36,023 bases of DNA from Bdellovibrionales bacterium (GTDB lineage: Bacteria; Bdellovibrionota; Bdellovibrionia; Bdellovibrionales; UBA1609): positions 1 through 36,023 of the forward strand of contig JADZEO010000024.1 of assembly GCA_020850475.1 (NCBI GenBank), read 5' to 3'. The notes beneath the pieces are model-generated. The model ran no database searches. It saw nothing but the letters and a program-made list of their open reading frames with translations, and was not told where the DNA came from. Each line of letters opens with the position of its first letter. The stretch's first letter is position 1. Shown one piece after another: positions 8,673-24,366 of the stretch. The translations under genes were made by a program, and so were the position numbers.

Positions 8673-8735
8673 GAGTCTCCTCGGCCACCCCGATAAGGTG
8701 GGCCCGCTCTCTCTGCATTTTATCCCAAAATCACA

Positions 8736-11453
8736 CTAGATTTTAAGTTTCTTCTTAGACTTCTTTTCGAGTTGCCGTCGTTGGGCGCGGTTGGGCTTAT
8801 GGCTCGACCCAGGACCTGGACCTCGGGACAAGAACATTTCCTGGCCCTCGGCCGAGGCCGACTCCGCCTCTGGCGGTCGCGCCAGCGGCAGACCCTGCTT
8901 GCCGCCAAAAAAGCCCGTCTGGCCTTCGTCAGCTCCGGCATAGTCGAAATCCCGCTCCTCAAGAGCTTGCTCCTGTTGAGCTTGCATTTCACTGGCCGCT
9001 TGCTCCGGCGCCACGATCTGAACTTTCAAAAGTTTTTCGATCGTCTCGCTTTGCACGATGTGATTCATTACTTCGAAGGCTCGAAAGGCCTCTTTCTTAT
9101 ATTCAATCAACGGATCCTTTTGAGCATACGCCCGCAGATTAATACCTTCTTTGAGGTGGTCGATCATCTGCAGGTGCTCTTTCCACTTTTGATCAATCGT
9201 CTGCAGCAAAACCATTTTGGAGATTTGTTCGAAGTAAGGGCCCAAGCTCGCCTTTTGGCGATCGAACACTTCTTTAACCGCACGACTCACCAGATCGGTA
9301 ATTTGGTCACCTGTCAGATTTACTAAATCAGGAAACTGAATCGTCAAGCCAAACTGCTGGCGAAGAGCCGTGTTCATGCCCTCGAGATCCCAGTCCTTAA
9401 CCTTGACTTCGGAGTGGGCATGCGAATCGAGAATCTTAGAGGTCACTTCTCCAAGGAAGTCGAGAACCGTTCGCTCGATGCCTTCGCCGCCAAGCAGTTG
9501 GCGGCGTTGCGTGTAAACGGCCGTGCGTTGCTTATTCATAACATCGTCAAAGTCCAACAGGTGTTTACGAATATCAAAGTTATGGCCTTCCACTTTGCGT
9601 TGCGCACCCTCGATCGCGCGGCTCACCATGCCCGCAACAATGGGCTCGTCCTCGGGGACCTTCAAGGTATTCATGATTTTTTGAATTCGTTCACCGTTAA
9701 AGATCCGCATGAGGTTGTCTTCAAGGGAAAGGTAAAAGCGAGATTCCCCGGGGTCTCCTTGGCGACCGGAGCGGCCTCGCAGCTGATTGTCGATACGGCG
9801 AGATTCGTGGCGCTCAGTTCCGACAATGTAAAGCCCGCCAGCCGCCAAAACCTCTTCCTTTTCCCTCTTACACTGATCAACCGCCTTGCTTAAGGTCTCT
9901 TGATATTGCGCTGACCCCTCGTCAGAATTTGTTCGCCTCGCCATGAACTCGGCATTACCGCCGAGTACAATGTCAGTTCCACGACCGGCCATGTTGGTGG
10001 CAATGGTAATCGCGCCTTTTCTTCCGGCCTGAGCAACAATCTCCGCCTCGCGCTCGTGGTGTTTGGCATTTAAGACATTGTGAGTGACTCCCAGCTTTTT
10101 CAACAAATTGCTCAGTGCCTCACTTTTTTCAATGCTCACGGTACCCACCAGAACAGGTTGCCCTTTTTCGTTCCGGCCCTTGATGTCGTCGGCGATAGCT
10201 TTAAACTTTGCCCGCTCGGTTTTATAAACGACATCGTCCTCATCTTGACGACGGATCGGCTTATTGGTGGGGATTACTGCCACATCTAAGTTGTAGATTT
10301 TTTTGAACTCGACCGCTTCCGTTTCGGCAGTTCCGGTCATCCCGGCTAGTTTTTGATACATCCTAAAATAATTTTGGAAGGTAATGGTCGCTAGCGTTTG
10401 GTTTTCACTCTTAACTTTGACCCCTTCCTTCGCCTCGATCGCCTGGTGGAGGCCATCACTCCAGCGTCGACCCGGCATCAAACGTCCGGTGAACTCGTCA
10501 ACGATGACCACCTCACCGTCTTTGATCATGTACTCGACGTCCAGCTTATAGAGGTAGTGTGCCTTTAGGCCCTGGTAAATGTGGTGCAAAATTGCAATAT
10601 TGCGAGGGTCGTAAAGGTTATCGATGCCGAGGAGCTCTTCAACCTGCGCATTCCCTTCTTCGGTCAATGACGCCGTCTTTGATTTTTCCTCCATCGTAAA
10701 ATGAACATCACGCTTAAGGTGCGGGATGATTTTATTGATTTCATAATACTTATCGGTGGAGTCTTCGGACGGACCTGAGATAATCAACGGAGTTCGCGCT
10801 TCATCAATCAAAATCGAGTCGCACTCGTCTACAATGGCATAATTGAGCGGCCGTTGAACGTAGTCACGAAGATCAAACTTCATGTTGTCGCGGAGATAAT
10901 CAAAACCAAACTCATTATTGGTACCATAGGTAATGTCGGCACCGTAGCTCGCCTGGCGTTGACGATCGGTCAAATCGTGAATGATCGTACCGGTGGTTAA
11001 ACCCAGCCACTTGTAAAGCCGACCCATCCACTCTTCGTCGCGAGTGGCAAGGTAGTCGTTAACGGTTACGACGTGGACGCCCTTACCCGTCAGACCGTTG
11101 AGATAAACCGGCAGCGTCGCCACCAGGGTCTTTCCTTCTCCTGTTTTCATCTCGGCGATTTGCCCCCGGTGCAGGGTCATTCCACCGATGAGCTGCACGT
11201 CATAATGGCGCATGCCTAAGACCCGTCGGGAACCTTCTCGACAAACCGCAAACGCTTCGGGAAGGAGACTGTCCAGTGGTTCGCCGTTAGCTAGGCGTTG
11301 GCGAAAGGCCGGGGTCATCCCCTTCAGTTGGTCATCGGTGAGCGCCTTCATCTTGTCTTCCATGCCGTTGATTTGATCTATCAAGGGCTGGAGACGTTTC
11401 ATGTCGCGTTCGTGTTTGGTGCCAAAGAGTTTCGACAAAGTCTTAGAAATCAT
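8736..11453 (-). CDS. secA: Preprotein translocase ATPase SecA
   Basis: 905-residue motor that drives proteins through SecYEG by ATP hydrolysis. Walker A GEGKT is at residues 105-109. The Walker B/DEAD motif reads [20 protein letters not shown], with DECD where most SecAs have DEVD or DEAD. The helicase C-half motifs ([27 protein letters not shown]) and the scaffold/wing domains are complete. The extreme C-terminus has no Cys-rich zinc/SecB-binding motif; it ends in a Pro/Gly/Ser linker and a basic [15 protein letters not shown] tail. A candidate promoter sits just upstream (11490-11518). Downstream genes follow on the same strand. Confidence 0.97.
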
Positions 11454-12021: not shown

Positions 12022-12621
12022 TCAAGTCAGGTACCGGTAAACCTCGCGGCCTAATTTGCTCAAGGCCAGCCGCCGACCCTTATCGACGATGAGATCAAGC
12101 TTCATCAGCTCCCGGTAAAGATCGAGATTGATAGGAATGATCTCTCGCCCGGTGGAAGAGCCAAGGCGACGAACATATTCAGCTTGGCGATCGGTCAATT
12201 GGGTTACAAACGCGGGTTCCCGCTCCATCTCCGCCAGCCAGTTACCACCATCGATTCGCTTGGCGTTCGCCGGAACCTTGCTCGGATTCACTACGTAAAC
12301 CGCCGCAGACTCTAAAGCGCCCTCACAGTCGACGGCGATTTCCTTTCTAAAAAACAAACTCTTGGCCGGAAAGGTCGGCATGACACCATGAAATTCATCT
12401 AGAAGTGTAAAGAGAATGGCCGGGGCTTCGAGCTCCAAGAGCTGGCCAGATACACCGTCGTTGCCCTCGTCGCTAAACACGGGATAGCCAACGGGAAGCC
12501 GGTACACCGAGCCCCGCGCGACCGCTGGCCTGCAGGATTTAACGTAGTTGGCCACTCGATCAAAATGAACCATGCCTCGGCAAAAAGACCCGTACACGAA
12601 TATGTTCACAGTACTGGACAC
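12022..12621 (-). CDS. Gamma-glutamylcyclotransferase-like (AIG2/GGCT fold) protein
   Basis: About 199 residues. The N-terminal signature NIFVYGSFCRG (family VYGSLxxG) begins at residue 6, and a later GLLE-type segment (VSGQLLELEAPAILFTLLDEFHG) gives the fold's catalytic region. The C-terminal about 80 residues, including a winged-helix-like end (LDLIVDKGRRLALSKLGREVYRYL), are an extension beyond the basic fold. The open frame continues to 13014, but that part is antisense to glnB. GTG 12621, preceded by GGGGGTGGG, is my preferred start; ATG 12657 is an alternative. The substrate is unknown. Confidence 0.72.
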   Translation of the reverse strand: MSSTVNIFVYGSFCRGMVHFDRVANYVKSCRPAVARGSVYRLPVGYPVFSDEGNDGVSGQLLELEAPAILFTLLDEFHGVMPTFPAKSLFFRKEIAVDCEGALESAAVYVVNPSKVPANAKRIDGGNWLAEMEREPAFVTQLTDRQAEYVRRLGSSTGREIIPINLDLYRELMKLDLIVDKGRRLALSKLGREVYRYLT

Positions 12622-13225
<604 letters not shown>

Positions 13226-13305: not shown

Positions 13306-14715
13306 ATGAGACCAGAAGAGGTTCTTAAGTTCGCCAAAGAGCGCGGCTGCAAGATGGTGGATTTTAAATTCACTGATCTGCCCGGCATGTGGCAACACTT
13401 TACAATCCCCCTAAGCGAATTAACCGTTGATACTTTCGAAGATGGCCTGGGGTTCGACGGCAGCTCCATTCGTGGCTGGCGTAGCATCCATGAGTCGGAC
13501 ATGGTCGTAAAACCTGATCCGAAGACTGCGATCGTTGACCCCTTTATGGAAGTTCCGACGCTCTCATTGACTTGCGATGTGGTCATGCCCTCTGGCGAAG
13601 CTTATGATCGTGATCCTCGCAACCTCATTAAACGCGCCAACGCCTATTTGTTGTCAACCGGCGTAGCTGATACAGCCTACTTCGGTCCCGAAGCGGAGTT
13701 CTTTATTTTTGATGACGTCCGCTATGAGCAAACAGCCTACGGCGGTTTTTATCAAGTCGACTCCGATGAGGCCTCGTGGAACTCTGGCCGCGACGAGGGC
13801 AAGAACTTGGGATATAAACCACGCCACAAAGAGGGCTATTTCCCGGCGCTACCTTCGGATTCACATCACGACTTGCGCACGGAAATCTGTCTTGAGCTTG
13901 AGCGCTGTGGAATGATCGTTGAGCGGCAACATCACGAAGTGGCAACTGCTGGTCAGGGCGAAATCGACATCCGCTTCGATTCGATGATTGAGATGGCGGA
14001 CAAGATGCAGTGGTTTAAGTATATCGTCAAAAACGTCGCGCGCCGCCACGGCAAATCCGCCACCTTCATGCCCAAACCGCTTTTTGGTGACAATGGTTCC
14101 GGGATGCACACGCACGTCTCTCTTTGGAAAGACGGCGAGCCGCTCTTTGCGGGGGACAAGTACGCTGGCCTGAGCCAGATGGGACTTTATTTTATCGGTG
14201 GTATTCTCAAACACGCCTCGGCTCTTTGCGCATTTACGAACCCCACTACGAACTCTTATAAGCGCTTGGTGCCTGGATTTGAGGCCCCCATTAAGTTGGC
14301 TTACAGCTTCAGTAACCGCTCCGCTGCGATTCGGATTCCGAACTCTGGCCCCAACCCCAAGGCCAAGCGACTTGAGTTCCGAACTCCAGATCCTGCCAGC
14401 AACGTGTACTTGGCTCTGTCCTGCATCTTGATGGCCGGCCTCGATGGTGTCCTCAACAAGATTCATCCCGGAGACCCCTTAGATAAAGATATTTACGGTC
14501 TTCCCCCGGAAGAAGCGGCCAAAGTTCCGAGCGTTCCGGCCACTCTGGATCGCTCCCTGATGGCGCTTGAGCAGGACCATGAGTTTCTCCTCAAGGGCGA
14601 TGTCTTTACCAAGGATTTCATCAAATCTTGGATTGAGTACAAGTACGAGCGCGAGATTATCCCGACCTATCAACGGCCCTCACCATTTGAGTTCTACCTG
14701 TACTACGATCTCTAA
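13306..14715 (+). CDS. glnA: Glutamine synthetase, type I
   Basis: 469 residues; makes glutamine from glutamate, ammonia and ATP. Characteristic segments are [10 protein letters not shown] near 49-58, [11 protein letters not shown] (metal ligands), the [21 protein letters not shown] region, the NRSAAIRIP box, and RLEFRTPDP. Tyr397 lies in [10 protein letters not shown], the position adenylylated by GlnE in E. coli, so the enzyme belongs to the I-beta class. With Tyr51 of the neighbouring P-II protein this suggests a GlnD/GlnE cascade. GGAG (13297-13300) precedes the ATG. A strong intrinsic terminator follows. Confidence 0.97.
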
Positions 14716-14737: not shown

Positions 14738-14775
14738 AAAAAAAGCCGATCCTACCTGGATCGGCTTTTTTATTT
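14738..14775 (+). terminator. Intrinsic terminator after glnA
   Basis: Stem GCCGATCC (14745-14752) pairs with GGATCGGC (14758-14765) around a 5-nt loop and is followed by six T. An A-run before the stem extends the pairing and may let it work on the other strand as well. Confidence 0.92.
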
Positions 14776-14841: not shown

Positions 14842-15246
14842 ATGGATGATTTGATCACATATATGGGCTACGAGTGGGTACAGGCGGAAGATGGCGTCAT
14901 TACCATTGGCATCAATGACGACGGGCTGGAGGAATTTTCCGAGGTCGCAAGCGCCAATTTGCCCAGTGAGGGCGAAGAAGTTTCGGGCGACGAGGTTTGC
15001 GGAGAGCTTGAAACCGACCAAGGGCCCATGAATATCTATTCGCCAGTTAAAGGCAAAATTGTCGAGGTCAACGAAGCCGTGATGGAGAACCCTAATCTGA
15101 TCTTGGAAGATTGCTATGGCGATGGCTGGCTCATTCGAGTTGAAGCCGATCGGCAGGAAGATGTGGACCGCCTGGCTCGGGCCGGATCCTCGGACGACGA
15201 AGATGATGAACGCGAAAGTGATCTCCAGGAAGACGAAGAAGGGTAA
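14842..15246 (+). CDS. GcvH-like protein lacking the lipoyl lysine
   Basis: 134 residues with the H-protein fold of the glycine cleavage system: GVITIGINDDGLEEF near 18-32, YSPVKGKIVEVNEAV near 66-80, and NPNLILEDCYGDGWLIRVE near 84-102. In H-protein the lipoylated lysine sits in ESVKAASDxYSPV; here the aligned stretch is ETDQGPMNIYSPV, so position 60 is Gln (CAA, 15019-15021). It cannot carry lipoate there. The last about 25 residues are an acidic tail (Asp/Glu runs) not typical of GcvH. No gcvT or gcvP is near. ATG 14842 has AGG 8 nt upstream. A role outside glycine cleavage is likely. Confidence 0.87.
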   Translation: MDDLITYMGYEWVQAEDGVITIGINDDGLEEFSEVASANLPSEGEEVSGDEVCGELETDQGPMNIYSPVKGKIVEVNEAVMENPNLILEDCYGDGWLIRVEADRQEDVDRLARAGSSDDEDDERESDLQEDEEG

Positions 15247-15285: not shown

Positions 15286-16809
15286 TTAACTATTTCCGTC
15301 ACCAACCGGCAAATCTGAAAGTAAAATCGACTTTATCTCTTTACCGTCGAAGGACACAATTCGGCGCTCAGAATCCAGCACTGTGGCCAGGTTCACGGGA
15401 CGCTGCCAAATCTTGTACAGGTTTTTCATTGTGGCCTGCATATAATCGGGCTGCATTTCGATCCCTTCAAACATGTGGGCCAAAAGCAACTCCCCGCGAT
15501 TTTCGAAATTGGCATCGATAACATTAATGATCGGCTGTCCGAAGTTGGTCAGCTGAAACAAAAACTTCGCTTTAATGGCCTTGAAATCGCGCGTATCAAC
15601 CTCAAACTGGCCGGTGCGCTTGTTAAACTTGTAAACAAACATGCGGTTTTGAATGCAAAACTCTTCGGTCAAGAATTCATCGATAAAGGTGACGTCATTG
15701 TAATTGCGCCGGACCTCAAAGATCTTTTCCCGACCTCGCATCTCTTTCGTGTCCCAGGTCTGCCGAGCACTCATGTCCTGGCATTCGTCCCACTCTTTGC
15801 CATAACGACCCTTGTTCCACCGACTCTCGATGTCGCGAAATAACTCGATGCCAACCTTATAGGGATTAAAGCCCGAAGGGGACATCGCCATGGTGCCGCT
15901 ATGACGATCGGCAAAATCAATAATTTCTGCCGCGGTCGCAATTTTTTCGGTCATCAATTTAGAGTGCCAGTAGGACGCCCAGCCCTCGTTCATGATTTTG
16001 GTCATTCCCTGAGGGGCAAAATAGTAAGCTTCTTCGCGAACGATCGAAATCACGTCCTGCTGCCAAGATTCCAGAGGAGCATAGTTGAGCAAAAAATTAA
16101 GGACGTCACGAACGGGTTCCGGCGGGAAGTGTCGTCGTTCAAACTTTTGTCTTTCGGCGGCCTCAGCCTTTGCCTGAGCGATCAGTTCAGGAGGGTTAAT
16201 GAATTTCTCCATGTAGTCGCGGTGGACTTTGAGACGAAATCCATCCGTTTTTTCAATTTCGACGACCTCTTTTTTATTGGGGTCTTCTTTGATCACGTCC
16301 ATTACGTAAGGACTATGTCGGTCGATTAGGTTTTCAAGACTCAGGCAAACGTCGATGAAGTCCTCGACCACTTCAACCCCGTAACGGTCCATATAACGAC
16401 GTATACGAGTGCCGTGATTGGCCATCGCATCCATCATCTTGCGATTGGTGGGGGAAAACCATTGGTTGTTTTTGAAGAAGTCGCAGTGGCCAAAGACGTG
16501 GGCCATCACCAACTTTTGGTCGACGATATCGTTGCCCTCCATGAGGTACGCATAACAGGGATCGTTATTGATCACCAACTCATAGATTTTTGAGAGCCCG
16601 TATTCATAACTCTTCGAAAGTTGTTCGTACTCCATGCCGAATCGCCAGTGCGGGTACCGAACCGGAAAACCACCGTAGGCCGCGATTTGATTCATTTGGT
16701 TGTAGTTGACGATTTCAAAGATCGTGTCAAAAAAATCGAGACCTTGCTCCTTAGCGAGCCGACATATTTTTTGGCGTTCGCGCTCCAACTCGGGAGTTAG
16801 ATTGCTCAT
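15286..16809 (-). CDS. SpoVR family protein
   Basis: 507 residues, full length for the family. The conserved N-terminal block (YGGFPVRYPHWRFGMEYEQL near 45-64) and the HVFGHCDFFKNN box near 104-115 are intact, as is the C-terminal LLAHMFEGIEMQPDYMQATMKNLYKIW region. The biochemical role is unknown; in sporeformers it affects cortex formation, and in many non-sporeformers it is co-transcribed with prkA and yeaH. Here it begins 3 nt after the yeaH stop as the last gene of that operon and ends 39 bp from the convergent GcvH-like gene. Confidence 0.94.
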   Translation of the reverse strand: MSNLTPELERERQKICRLAKEQGLDFFDTIFEIVNYNQMNQIAAYGGFPVRYPHWRFGMEYEQLSKSYEYGLSKIYELVINNDPCYAYLMEGNDIVDQKLVMAHVFGHCDFFKNNQWFSPTNRKMMDAMANHGTRIRRYMDRYGVEVVEDFIDVCLSLENLIDRHSPYVMDVIKEDPNKKEVVEIEKTDGFRLKVHRDYMEKFINPPELIAQAKAEAAERQKFERRHFPPEPVRDVLNFLLNYAPLESWQQDVISIVREEAYYFAPQGMTKIMNEGWASYWHSKLMTEKIATAAEIIDFADRHSGTMAMSPSGFNPYKVGIELFRDIESRWNKGRYGKEWDECQDMSARQTWDTKEMRGREKIFEVRRNYNDVTFIDEFLTEEFCIQNRMFVYKFNKRTGQFEVDTRDFKAIKAKFLFQLTNFGQPIINVIDANFENRGELLLAHMFEGIEMQPDYMQATMKNLYKIWQRPVNLATVLDSERRIVSFDGKEIKSILLSDLPVGDGNS

Positions 16810-16812
16810 TGA

Positions 16813-17907
16813 CTATTTTCCTTTTCCCAAAAAGTCCTTGATCGACTGAAGAATCTTTTCCTTATTCTCAATCTTGCTGATCACTAACTTGTCTTCGCTC
16901 GGGAAAGTCTTCTCCAGATCCTTTAAGAACTGACCACTGCCGTATTTACTTTCAACCTGACCATAGCCGAACATGTTGACTCGCGGAAAAAAGAATTTCT
17001 GGAGCAGACTGAGGCACATCCGCGTGTCTTCCCCACTCCAATTGTCACCGTCACTAAAGTGGAAGGGGTAAATGTTCCAGGCCTCCAGCGGATAATCTTC
17101 TTCGATCATTTTCTGACAAAGCTTGTAAGCCGAGCTGATCAGGGTGCCGCCCGACTCACTGGTGCTGAAAAATGTTTTTTCGTCGACTTCCTTGGCGGCC
17201 GCATCGTGAATGATAAATCTTGTCTCTAATCCCTTGTAGTTGCGGCGCAACCAGGCGTTGATCCAAAAACTCTCCATCCGCACAATTTCTTTTTGCTCGT
17301 CTCCCATCGACCCCGAAACGTCCATCATATAAATCACGACCGCATTGGCTTGCGGCTTAACGACTTTTCGATAAGTCTTGTAACGAAGGTCGCGTCGAAT
17401 CGGAACCACAAAGGGCTCATCGGGATCATAGGTTCCGCTGGCGATGGAGCGCTTGAGCGCTTCCTTGTAGGAAGCTTTGAAGTGTCTTAACCCCTCCGGG
17501 CCTACTGGTGAGCGACCGGAGTACTTGTAGGTCGTCACATCGGTATTCTTATTCCCTTTGGGTTCAATTCGCGGCAAGGCCAGCTCTTCGCCTAAGATAT
17601 CCGCCAGCTCATCGATGGTCACATCGACTTCAAGAAAATGCTCCCCGGGGTTCTCCCCTGCCTGACCCTGGCCCGGCTGATCGCCGTCGACCGCCTCACC
17701 GGCTTGACCGGTACCTTGTCCGACCCCGCCCTGTTGCTTGGGGCCGTACTTAAACCGCGGAATATCAATTGAGGGAATGGGGATTTTTACGTAATCTTTT
17801 TCGCGTTTTCCAACCATTTCGCCGTGGGTGACGTATTTTTTGAAGTTCTGTTTGATCCGACCTCGGACAATGTCGCGAAATCGGTTGTTGTCTTCCTGAA
17901 TACCCAC
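16813..17907 (-). CDS. yeaH: YeaH/DUF444 von Willebrand factor A-like protein
   Basis: 364 residues. The N-terminal DUF444 region ([12 protein letters not shown]..., then [15 protein letters not shown]) is followed by a Gly/Gln-rich stretch (57-90) and a VWA-like domain with the metal-site motif DVSGSM at 196-201. In enterobacteria YeaH works with the kinase YeaG (PrkA). The start is GTG 17907, with GGAAGG and AAGG sequences upstream. It lies 24 nt after prkA and 3 nt before spoVR, so the three form one operon. Confidence 0.93.
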
Positions 17908-17931: not shown

Positions 17932-20016
17932 CTACTTCTTCTCCTTCACATCGCCGCGAGCAAAAATGCTTGCTACGTAGTGGAGTACATCGGTCGCGGA
18001 GATCTCGTCATAGCCAAATTCCTTGATCAAGCGGGTCTTAACGATGTCGATTTTCTCCTGGGTGTCTTTATCGATCACCGAGGAAACGAGCGACGTCAGT
18101 TTGATACTGTCCTTTTGATCCTCAAATAATTTGAGCTCCAAAGCCTTATGTAAACGCTCGTTGGTTTTGTAATCAAACTTTTTACCATCCAGCGACAAGG
18201 CCCCGATGTAATTCATGATCTCACGCCTAAAGTCGTCTTTGCGTGACTCATTGATCTCGATTTTTTCTTCAATCGAGCGCATCAGCCGCTCATCCGGCTC
18301 CTCATCTTGCCCAGTGAATTGATTCTTTACCTTTTGCTTCTGGGTATAGGCTTTGAGGTTGTCGATGTAGTTTCCGCACAAGCGGCCCAGGGCGCCCTCA
18401 TCGGCACTAATGGCTCTTTGCACTTCGGCTTTAATGATCTCTTCGTACTCTTGCTTGATGACGCTCAAGAGCTCCCGATAGTCCTGCTTGATTTCTTCTG
18501 AAGAAATCAATGAGTGGTGGCGAAGACCGCCGTCGAGTTCGTTGATGATCATAAAGGGGTTTACTGAACCGCGATTCGACTGCTGCGCGCGAACCACGGC
18601 ATTGGACAGTTTATCCTGAACGTAGCGAGGGGAAATTCCATCCAGACCTTCGCGCTTGGCCTCTTTGCGCAGCTCTTTGATGTTGTCCTCGGTATAACTC
18701 GGCAGACTCTTACCATCATAAAGCTTGAGCTTTTGAATTCGGGTGAGATTCGCCTTTTTCGGCTTTTCCAAACGCGTGAGGACGGCCCACATTGCCGCCA
18801 TTTCGACGGTATGAGGCGCAATGCTCACTCCGCGCAGCTTTTGGGAGTTAAAGTCCTTCTTGTAGATGTTGATCTCGTCCTTCCACTTGGTGATATAAGG
18901 AATGTCGATCTTCACCGTGCGGTCCCGAAGTGCTTCCATAAATTCGTTGTCTTGAAGCTTGCGATACTCGGGTTCGTTCGTGTGACCAATAATCACTTCA
19001 TCAATAAAGGTCTGGGCGAACTTCTTCGGCTTCACACGATGTTCCTGGGAGGCGCCCAACAGGTCGTACAAGAACGCGACATCCAGCTTCAACACCTCGA
19101 CAAACTCAATCATTCCGCGGGTGGCAATGTTAAATTCGCCGTCGAAGTTAAAGGCTCGCGGATCTGAATCTGAACCATACTCCGCAATCTTGCGATAGTT
19201 CAAATCGCCGGTGAGCTCGGTGCTATCCTGGTTCTTTTCATCTTTGGGCTGGAATGTCCCCACGCCAATACGATCCGCTTCATTCAGGACCAGTCGGCGC
19301 ACGCGCACGTGATCCAAAACTCGCGTGAGATCACCTTTATATTTTTCCAGCAATTGGCGAAAAATGTAACGACTCGGGGGACACAACTCTCCCTCGATCT
19401 TGATCTTAAACTCCGAACGGTTGCCGCGATTGAGTTCTTCGCAAATCTTGGGCCGCAACTCTTCCGGCACCAACAACAGGGGCTCTTCATGCATGGGGCT
19501 TGCGAAAACCCTGACGCCTTTGCCGAAAATGTCTTCATGCTGTCCAGACTCATCAACCCACTCGAAGGTGTAGAGCGCTCCCTCGTCCCGCTTGGAGTAA
19601 TTTTCAATTCCCCTCTTAAGCAGACGACAAATTGTAGATTTAGAACTTCCGACCGGGCCGTGGAGGAGGATCACCCGCTTTTCAGTCCCATATCCAAGGG
19701 CGGCTGAGCGAAGGACGTTCACCAACTTCATCAGGGCGATATCTAAGCCAAAAACCGCATCACGACCACCGTTGCCTTCATCATCAAAAAATCTGTAGTG
19801 CGTAATTTGCTTTTTAACATCGACGTAGTCTTTAACACCCGCTTCGATGATCATGTCGTACATCCGCTGGAAGGCATTGCGAGTGACCTTGGGATTTTCT
19901 TTGATTACTGCGAGATAATCGTCAAACGATCCCGACCAAGTGAGATCCCGGTACTGGCCTGATTTGTAGTGACTCTTAATGAGATCGTTGATTGAAAACT
20001 TGCTATCTGTCGACAT
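17932..20016 (-). CDS. prkA: PrkA-type serine protein kinase (YeaG)
   Basis: 694 residues. The N-terminal AAA-type ATPase region has Walker [10 protein letters not shown] at 120-128 and a [11 protein letters not shown] segment. The C-terminal half carries the PrkA domain with [23 protein letters not shown] near 530-550. In E. coli the homologue is linked to sustained nitrogen starvation and stationary phase. ATG 20016 has a very strong GGAGGGGGAG just upstream, and a candidate promoter lies at 20085-20113. It heads the prkA-yeaH-spoVR operon, which sits 3-7 kb from glnB-glnA. Confidence 0.95.
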
Positions 20017-23835: not shown

Positions 23836-24366
23836 GTGAACCAAGAAGTCATGTCTACAAAGGCAAATAACAGGACAAAAATCATCAAGCGGTACCAAAA
23901 CCGTAAACTCTACGACACTCAGCAGAGCTGTTACGTCACTTTGGACGATATCGCTAAAATGATTCGCAACAGCGAAGATGTCATGGTGATCGATAATAAG
24001 ACCAAGAACGACATCACTGCTGCAACGCTTACACAGATCATTTTTGAAGCCGAGAAAAAAGCTTCTCAATATGCTCCGCTGTTCACGTTGCGCGAAATTA
24101 TTCAAAATGGAAACGGCAGCATTTCTGCGTACCTTGCGAAGTTGGGAGCTTTCCCGAAAGACTACGCTCAACCCCAACCTGTTCCAGTTTTTTCTGAGAA
24201 GGTTGAGTTGGCAGAGCCCGCTCGTGCTTCTACTGATGATGTTAAGCAGTCACTGGAAGAGCGTGTCGCTACGGCCGCTCACGCCGCTCGCGAAGGCAGC
24301 ACTTACGGTGGTGCAAACGAAGTGACCCCCGACCTGCCCAATTCAAACAAGAGCTTGAATTCTTAA
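23836..24366 (+). CDS. phaR: PHA accumulation regulator PhaR-like DNA-binding protein
   Basis: 176 residues. The N-terminal PHB/PHA-accumulation regulator DNA-binding domain is at about 15-75: IIKRYQNRKLYDTQQSCYVTLDDIAKMI, then VIDNKTKNDITAATLTQIIFE. In PHA producers this protein senses polyhydroxyalkanoate and represses phasin genes, but PhaR-domain proteins occur widely in bacteria without obvious PHA genes. The second half is Ala/Pro/Glu/Ser-rich, probably disordered. GTG 23836 is favoured because GGGAGG is 7 nt upstream; ATG 23851 is the alternative. No phaC, phaB or phasin gene lies in the window. Confidence 0.88.
   Translation: MNQEVMSTKANNRTKIIKRYQNRKLYDTQQSCYVTLDDIAKMIRNSEDVMVIDNKTKNDITAATLTQIIFEAEKKASQYAPLFTLREIIQNGNGSISAYLAKLGAFPKDYAQPQPVPVFSEKVELAEPARASTDDVKQSLEERVATAAHAAREGSTYGGANEVTPDLPNSNKSLNS

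Follow-up and report, generated by a model that had tools for sequence, protein, structure and literature searches.

A GcvH-like protein family without the lipoyl lysine in Bdellovibrionia, and its possible reuse as a small acidic interaction subunit

Introduction

Paralogues of the glycine cleavage H-protein (GcvH) that perform other jobs are already known, GcvH-L and LbpA among them. GcvH-L is lipoylated. It is an H-like protein of the SirTM/LplA2 system, with a role outside glycine cleavage (PDB 5a35; PMC4518038). LbpA is the lipoate-binding protein of the sHdr sulfur-oxidation system, and the lysine is strictly conserved in 95 LbpAs (PMC6067878). Of a lysine-less GcvH family we have found no account: the literature covered, which takes in few subscription papers, yielded no paper about a GcvH without the lysine, nor any about GcvH in Bdellovibrio.

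Here we describe such a family of lysine-less GcvH-like proteins, to which we give the name HLP, from a gene in a stretch of 36,023 nucleotides of Bdellovibrionales DNA (contig JADZEO010000024.1), referred to below as the window.

Results

The HLP gene of the window (14842-15246, forward strand) encodes a protein of 134 residues, with the translation MDDLITYMGYEW...GELETDQGPMNIYSPVKG..., of which residues 10-115 match Pfam GCV_H (8.5e-27; 93.9 bits, above the cut-off of 22.2). A gap-free alignment with the canonical GcvH of the same genome places Gln60 (codon CAA, 15019-15021, forward strand) opposite the lysine of the motif ESVKAAND, so that the window HLP has Gln60 where a functional GcvH carries the lipoyl lysine at the tip of a hairpin. 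An AlphaFold2 model, for which the input alignment combined the window protein with sequences from related loci, predicts an H-protein fold (mean pLDDT 80.9) in which the hairpin 52-58/61-66 has residues 59-60 at its tip, and the best matches of the model among solved structures in Foldseek were all GcvH (e.g. 1onl; 2.9e-11, TM 0.78/0.82). Model confidence is low from about residue 111 and falls below 50 at 117-122; the acidic C-terminal tail (15190-15243, forward strand) is predicted to be disordered from its low pLDDT. Across the family, these tails are about 47% Asp or Glu, and the median net charge of the core is -24, compared with -16 in GcvH of Bdellovibrionota. The preliminary description of this DNA had recognized a GcvH homolog with an acidic tail and with Gln60 in place of the lipoyl lysine, and Pfam, fold, alignment and charge all confirm it.

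Among 44 aligned HLP sequences, comprising the window's own and those of its relatives, the residue at the lipoyl site is Gln (14), Asp (14), Glu (7), Ser (4), Asn (3), Gly (1) or Thr (1). Gln is therefore merely one of several polar choices, and the conservation of Gln across the clade that the preliminary description had considered is not seen. Lys, which that description had named as the residue to look for in close homologs, stands at the site in none of the 44 rows, and this excludes a sequencing error or chance as the source of Gln60; that lipoate cannot be carried at the normal site is likewise borne out. Nor is an alternative attachment lysine conserved: where the window protein has K70 and K72, its relatives mostly have other residues. 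The residue after the site is nearly always Gly (G61, 39/44), nearby hairpin positions are kept (T58 in 31, N64 in 30 and E75 in 42 of the 44 rows), and the conserved segment around the site reads D-E-x-C-G-E-x-E-T-D-x-G-P-L-N-L-Y-S-P-V. Judged from this alignment, the conserved feature of HLP is the loss of Lys together with Gly61 and the surrounding segment, rather than Gln itself, and we consider it very probable that HLP is free of cofactor at the lipoyl site. The HLP equivalents of Ser12, Glu14 and Asp67, which we take to be the aminomethyl-binding residues of the pea H-protein, are mostly changed. W12, G23, P68, G71, N77 and W96 are invariant, identity is about 45-68% over many genera, and no stop codon interrupts the matched core; conservation across the family suggests purifying selection.

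In a search of the phylum with a family profile built from HLP, HLPs scored at least 115 bits and canonical GcvH no more than about 111. Of 120 Bdellovibrionia genomes, all at least 85% complete, about 100 carry HLP, and a true GcvH accompanies it in nearly all of them; three HLP genomes (family f11) belong outside the order of the window. The window's own genome (3.9 Mb) has one further GCV_H gene besides HLP, with the canonical ESVKAAND and directly downstream of gcvT, so the separate lysine-bearing gcvH about which the preliminary description had wondered is present. HLP is kept across a class beside true GcvH, at a fixed locus, and some species do without it. Almost all genomes of the large family f12 have a single match, which scores at the canonical level.

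In a quick tree (96 rows, 107 columns), whose inner order is poorly resolved, every HLP, those of families f25 and f21 included, fell into one group apart from every GcvH (SH-aLRT 100). Family f25, a second lineage of the phylum, has H-proteins of its own that lack the lysine, with N, Q, R, L, H, Y or, in one case, K at the site, usually followed by Gly. Members of this clade lack the lysine and have Gly after the site, except for three rows of family f21, whose similar H-proteins have K followed by Q; the K of f21 counts against the explanation that we propose below. In these three f21 proteins, the K lies within an unusual loop, IEGEKQNFE. A third GcvH-like paralogue, which we call group K3, was also observed in Bdellovibrionaceae-like genomes (f8) and in one further genome (G043). 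Its lipoyl site is K, R or L (ESVK, ESVR, ESIL), and in it the lysine has been lost separately and in part, outside the clade of the HLPs.

The order of genes at the locus is secA-trmL-GGACT-(glnB-glnA)-HLP, convergent with spoVR-yeaH-prkA. In the window, glnB (PII protein; 12851-13225; Pfam P-II, 2.3e-31) and glnA (class-I glutamine synthetase; 13306-14715; TIGR00653, 651 bits), a neighbor that is not required, lie on the forward strand; spoVR (15286-16809; Pfam SpoVR, 6.7e-141), yeaH/yhbH (DUF444; 16813-17907; Pfam, 2.1e-84) and prkA/yeaG (17932-20016; Pfam AAA_PrkA and PrkA) lie on the reverse strand. The listed GGACT frame (12022-13225) overlaps glnB on the other strand and probably begins further in than listed; GGACT is missing in many relatives that retain trmL. 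A PhaR-type regulator of PHB accumulation (23836-24366; PHB_acc_N, 6.8e-29) is conserved near prkA-TPR in relatives.

Discussion

HLP is very probably a GcvH paralogue that gave up its cofactor while keeping the H-protein fold. The lipoyl turn has become a plain Asp-x-Gly turn, which leaves HLP neither lipoylatable at the normal site nor capable of aminomethyl shuttling. The hairpin that once presented lipoate has probably kept its shape while the cofactor position was freed from constraint, and the combination fits a binding surface rather than a transfer function. We propose that HLP now acts as a small acidic subunit, with an interaction or regulatory role, whose still-conserved hairpin docks onto a partner. 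To this reuse of a cofactor-free H-domain, for which any partner is a candidate only, we give about an even chance of being right.

The best positional candidates for a partner in Bdellovibrionia are SpoVR, YeaH and PrkA. A specific form of our explanation would make HLP a member of this starvation module, perhaps as an adaptor of the AAA+ protein PrkA, and the yeaG and yeaH genes of E. coli function under sustained nitrogen starvation (PMC4664914). Consistent with such membership, spoVR is convergent to HLP in 27/38 loci, lying within 3 kb in 18, and 11 mostly small genomes lack both HLP and SpoVR. Genome reduction explains the joint absence equally well, however, and we set co-loss aside as evidence of partnership on account of this confounding. 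Since the genes are convergent, HLP and spoVR are not one transcript; moreover, three genomes have HLP without a full SpoVR, seven or eight have SpoVR without HLP, and SpoVR lies tens of kilobases from HLP in Bdellovibrio-like genomes. The fixed order of the genes may itself be only ancestral. The stress role at which the preliminary description had hinted from these neighbors is compatible with the convergent placement and goes no further than that, and we regard membership of the module as possible but, on balance, rather unlikely.

A role for HLP in nitrogen control, as a regulator of the glutamine synthetase or the PII protein encoded beside it, is harder to reconcile with the comparative evidence. 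Although glnA lies directly upstream of HLP, on the same strand and within 1.5 kb, in 23/41 loci, and a scan of the gap between the two genes turned up nothing promoter-like, that gap contains a perfect 8-bp hairpin followed by a T-run (GCCGATCC-TACCT-GGATCGGC; 14745-14765, forward strand). The hairpin, located by script and missing from the list of a consensus scan, is likely the glnA terminator, and with it in between, glnA and HLP may be separate transcripts; thus, the gene adjoins glnA as first described, but beyond this hairpin. In addition, 13 genomes hold HLP in the same place without a match to class-I GlnA (most of them having only a GlnA type of roughly 750 residues), and six others possess a class-I GlnA and lack HLP, a pattern of presence and absence that rules out HLP as a dedicated GlnA partner and, together with the hairpin, makes a dedicated GlnA role unlikely. 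Two of these six genomes, G039 and G046, lack HLP between glnA and spoVR; in G039, an opposite-strand open frame of 344 residues occupies the gap. Furthermore, glnBA was not found in the HLP locus of two class members outside the order, and among the 32 loci with room upstream, glnA is found in 20 as against 31 for trmL or secA. The nitrogen role suggested earlier from the proximity of glnA is accordingly weak, and we hold regulation of glutamine synthetase or PII to be improbable.

The preliminary description had also offered a decoy, and HLP might indeed take the place of GcvH on GcvP, GcvT or the lipoylation enzymes and so damp flux, given its predicted GcvH fold and the true GcvH that coexists with it in nearly all genomes. 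This competitive modulation is disfavored by G201 (94% complete) and G159 (85%), two incomplete genomes that keep HLP and in which neither GcvP nor a canonical GcvH (any other GCV_H match) was found. The absence in G201 may be an assembly gap, because gcvP and gcvH lie close together in two other genomes (G196 and G042) and a gene that flanks gcvP in relatives is missing from G201 too. G159 does have the left flank, and no gcv genes come after it in the part of the sequence that was read. The mostly changed aminomethyl-site residues also count against a decoy, as does the fact that linkage of HLP to gcvT or gcvP was never seen in the loci read, and we give it only a small chance. That HLP is a functionless relic, as its loss in several species and its variable former cofactor site might suggest, can practically be dismissed given its identity over many genera, its six invariant residues, its uninterrupted core and its retention over a class.

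For the reading that we prefer, of HLP as a cofactor-free interaction or regulatory subunit, family f25 provides a concrete and testable route to function through its pairing with a degenerate histidine kinase. In 12 genomes of this family, HLP and a gene encoding a HisKA protein overlap or lie end to end (for example, at 8705-10298 of locus L148). This kinase-like protein matches Pfam HisKA (5e-13), its histidine box SHEL-[KR]TPL is conserved in 9/9 aligned rows, and no HATPase domain was matched in Pfam at an E-value of 0.05. By eye, the rest of the protein resembles a degenerate ATPase with a GGDEF-like tail. The partner of HLP in f25 is likely this degenerate histidine-kinase-like protein encoded directly downstream. 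A search of 40 Bdellovibrionia genomes gave no match to it at 1e-20, so the partner is not shared between the two lineages, and we rejected the HisKA protein as common to both.

It is tempting to go one step further and envisage cofactor-free H-domain signaling adaptors throughout the phylum, in which a dead lipoyl hairpin serves for docking to degenerate kinases or to AAA+ modules of the stress response. We consider this a doubtful extension, though a possible one; if true, a carrier protein would have been turned into a regulator. The lipoyl lysine is the reason for GcvH to exist, and a lineage that keeps a lysine-less HLP over a class therefore implies that the H-domain is useful without its cofactor. 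There is also a practical side, as automatic annotation probably calls HLP genes gcvH, and metabolic models built for predatory bacteria would be led astray by that name.

How, then, does HLP compare with the described relatives of GcvH? With GcvH itself (TIGR00527, PF01597) it shares the fold and most of the structural residues (Trp12, Gly23, Pro68, Gly71, Asn77 and Trp96), but it lacks both the lipoyl lysine and linkage to gcv genes, and it falls below the cut-off of the TIGR00527 equivalog (79.3 versus 115.85 bits). HLP also falls short of the models for two named GcvH relatives from other lineages, scoring 43.6 bits against a cut-off of 144.05 for TIGR03077 (not_gcvH) and 33 against 150 for NF045810 (GcvH_rel_desulf). 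GcvH-L (5a35) is a weaker structural match to HLP (1.9e-7) than is GcvH. LbpA, like HLP, is a GcvH paralogue, and its job lies outside glycine cleavage (PMC6067878); the lysine that LbpA strictly conserves is, however, absent from HLP (0/44), and the recognized neighbors of HLP are trmL-secA, glnBA and spoVR-yeaH-prkA.
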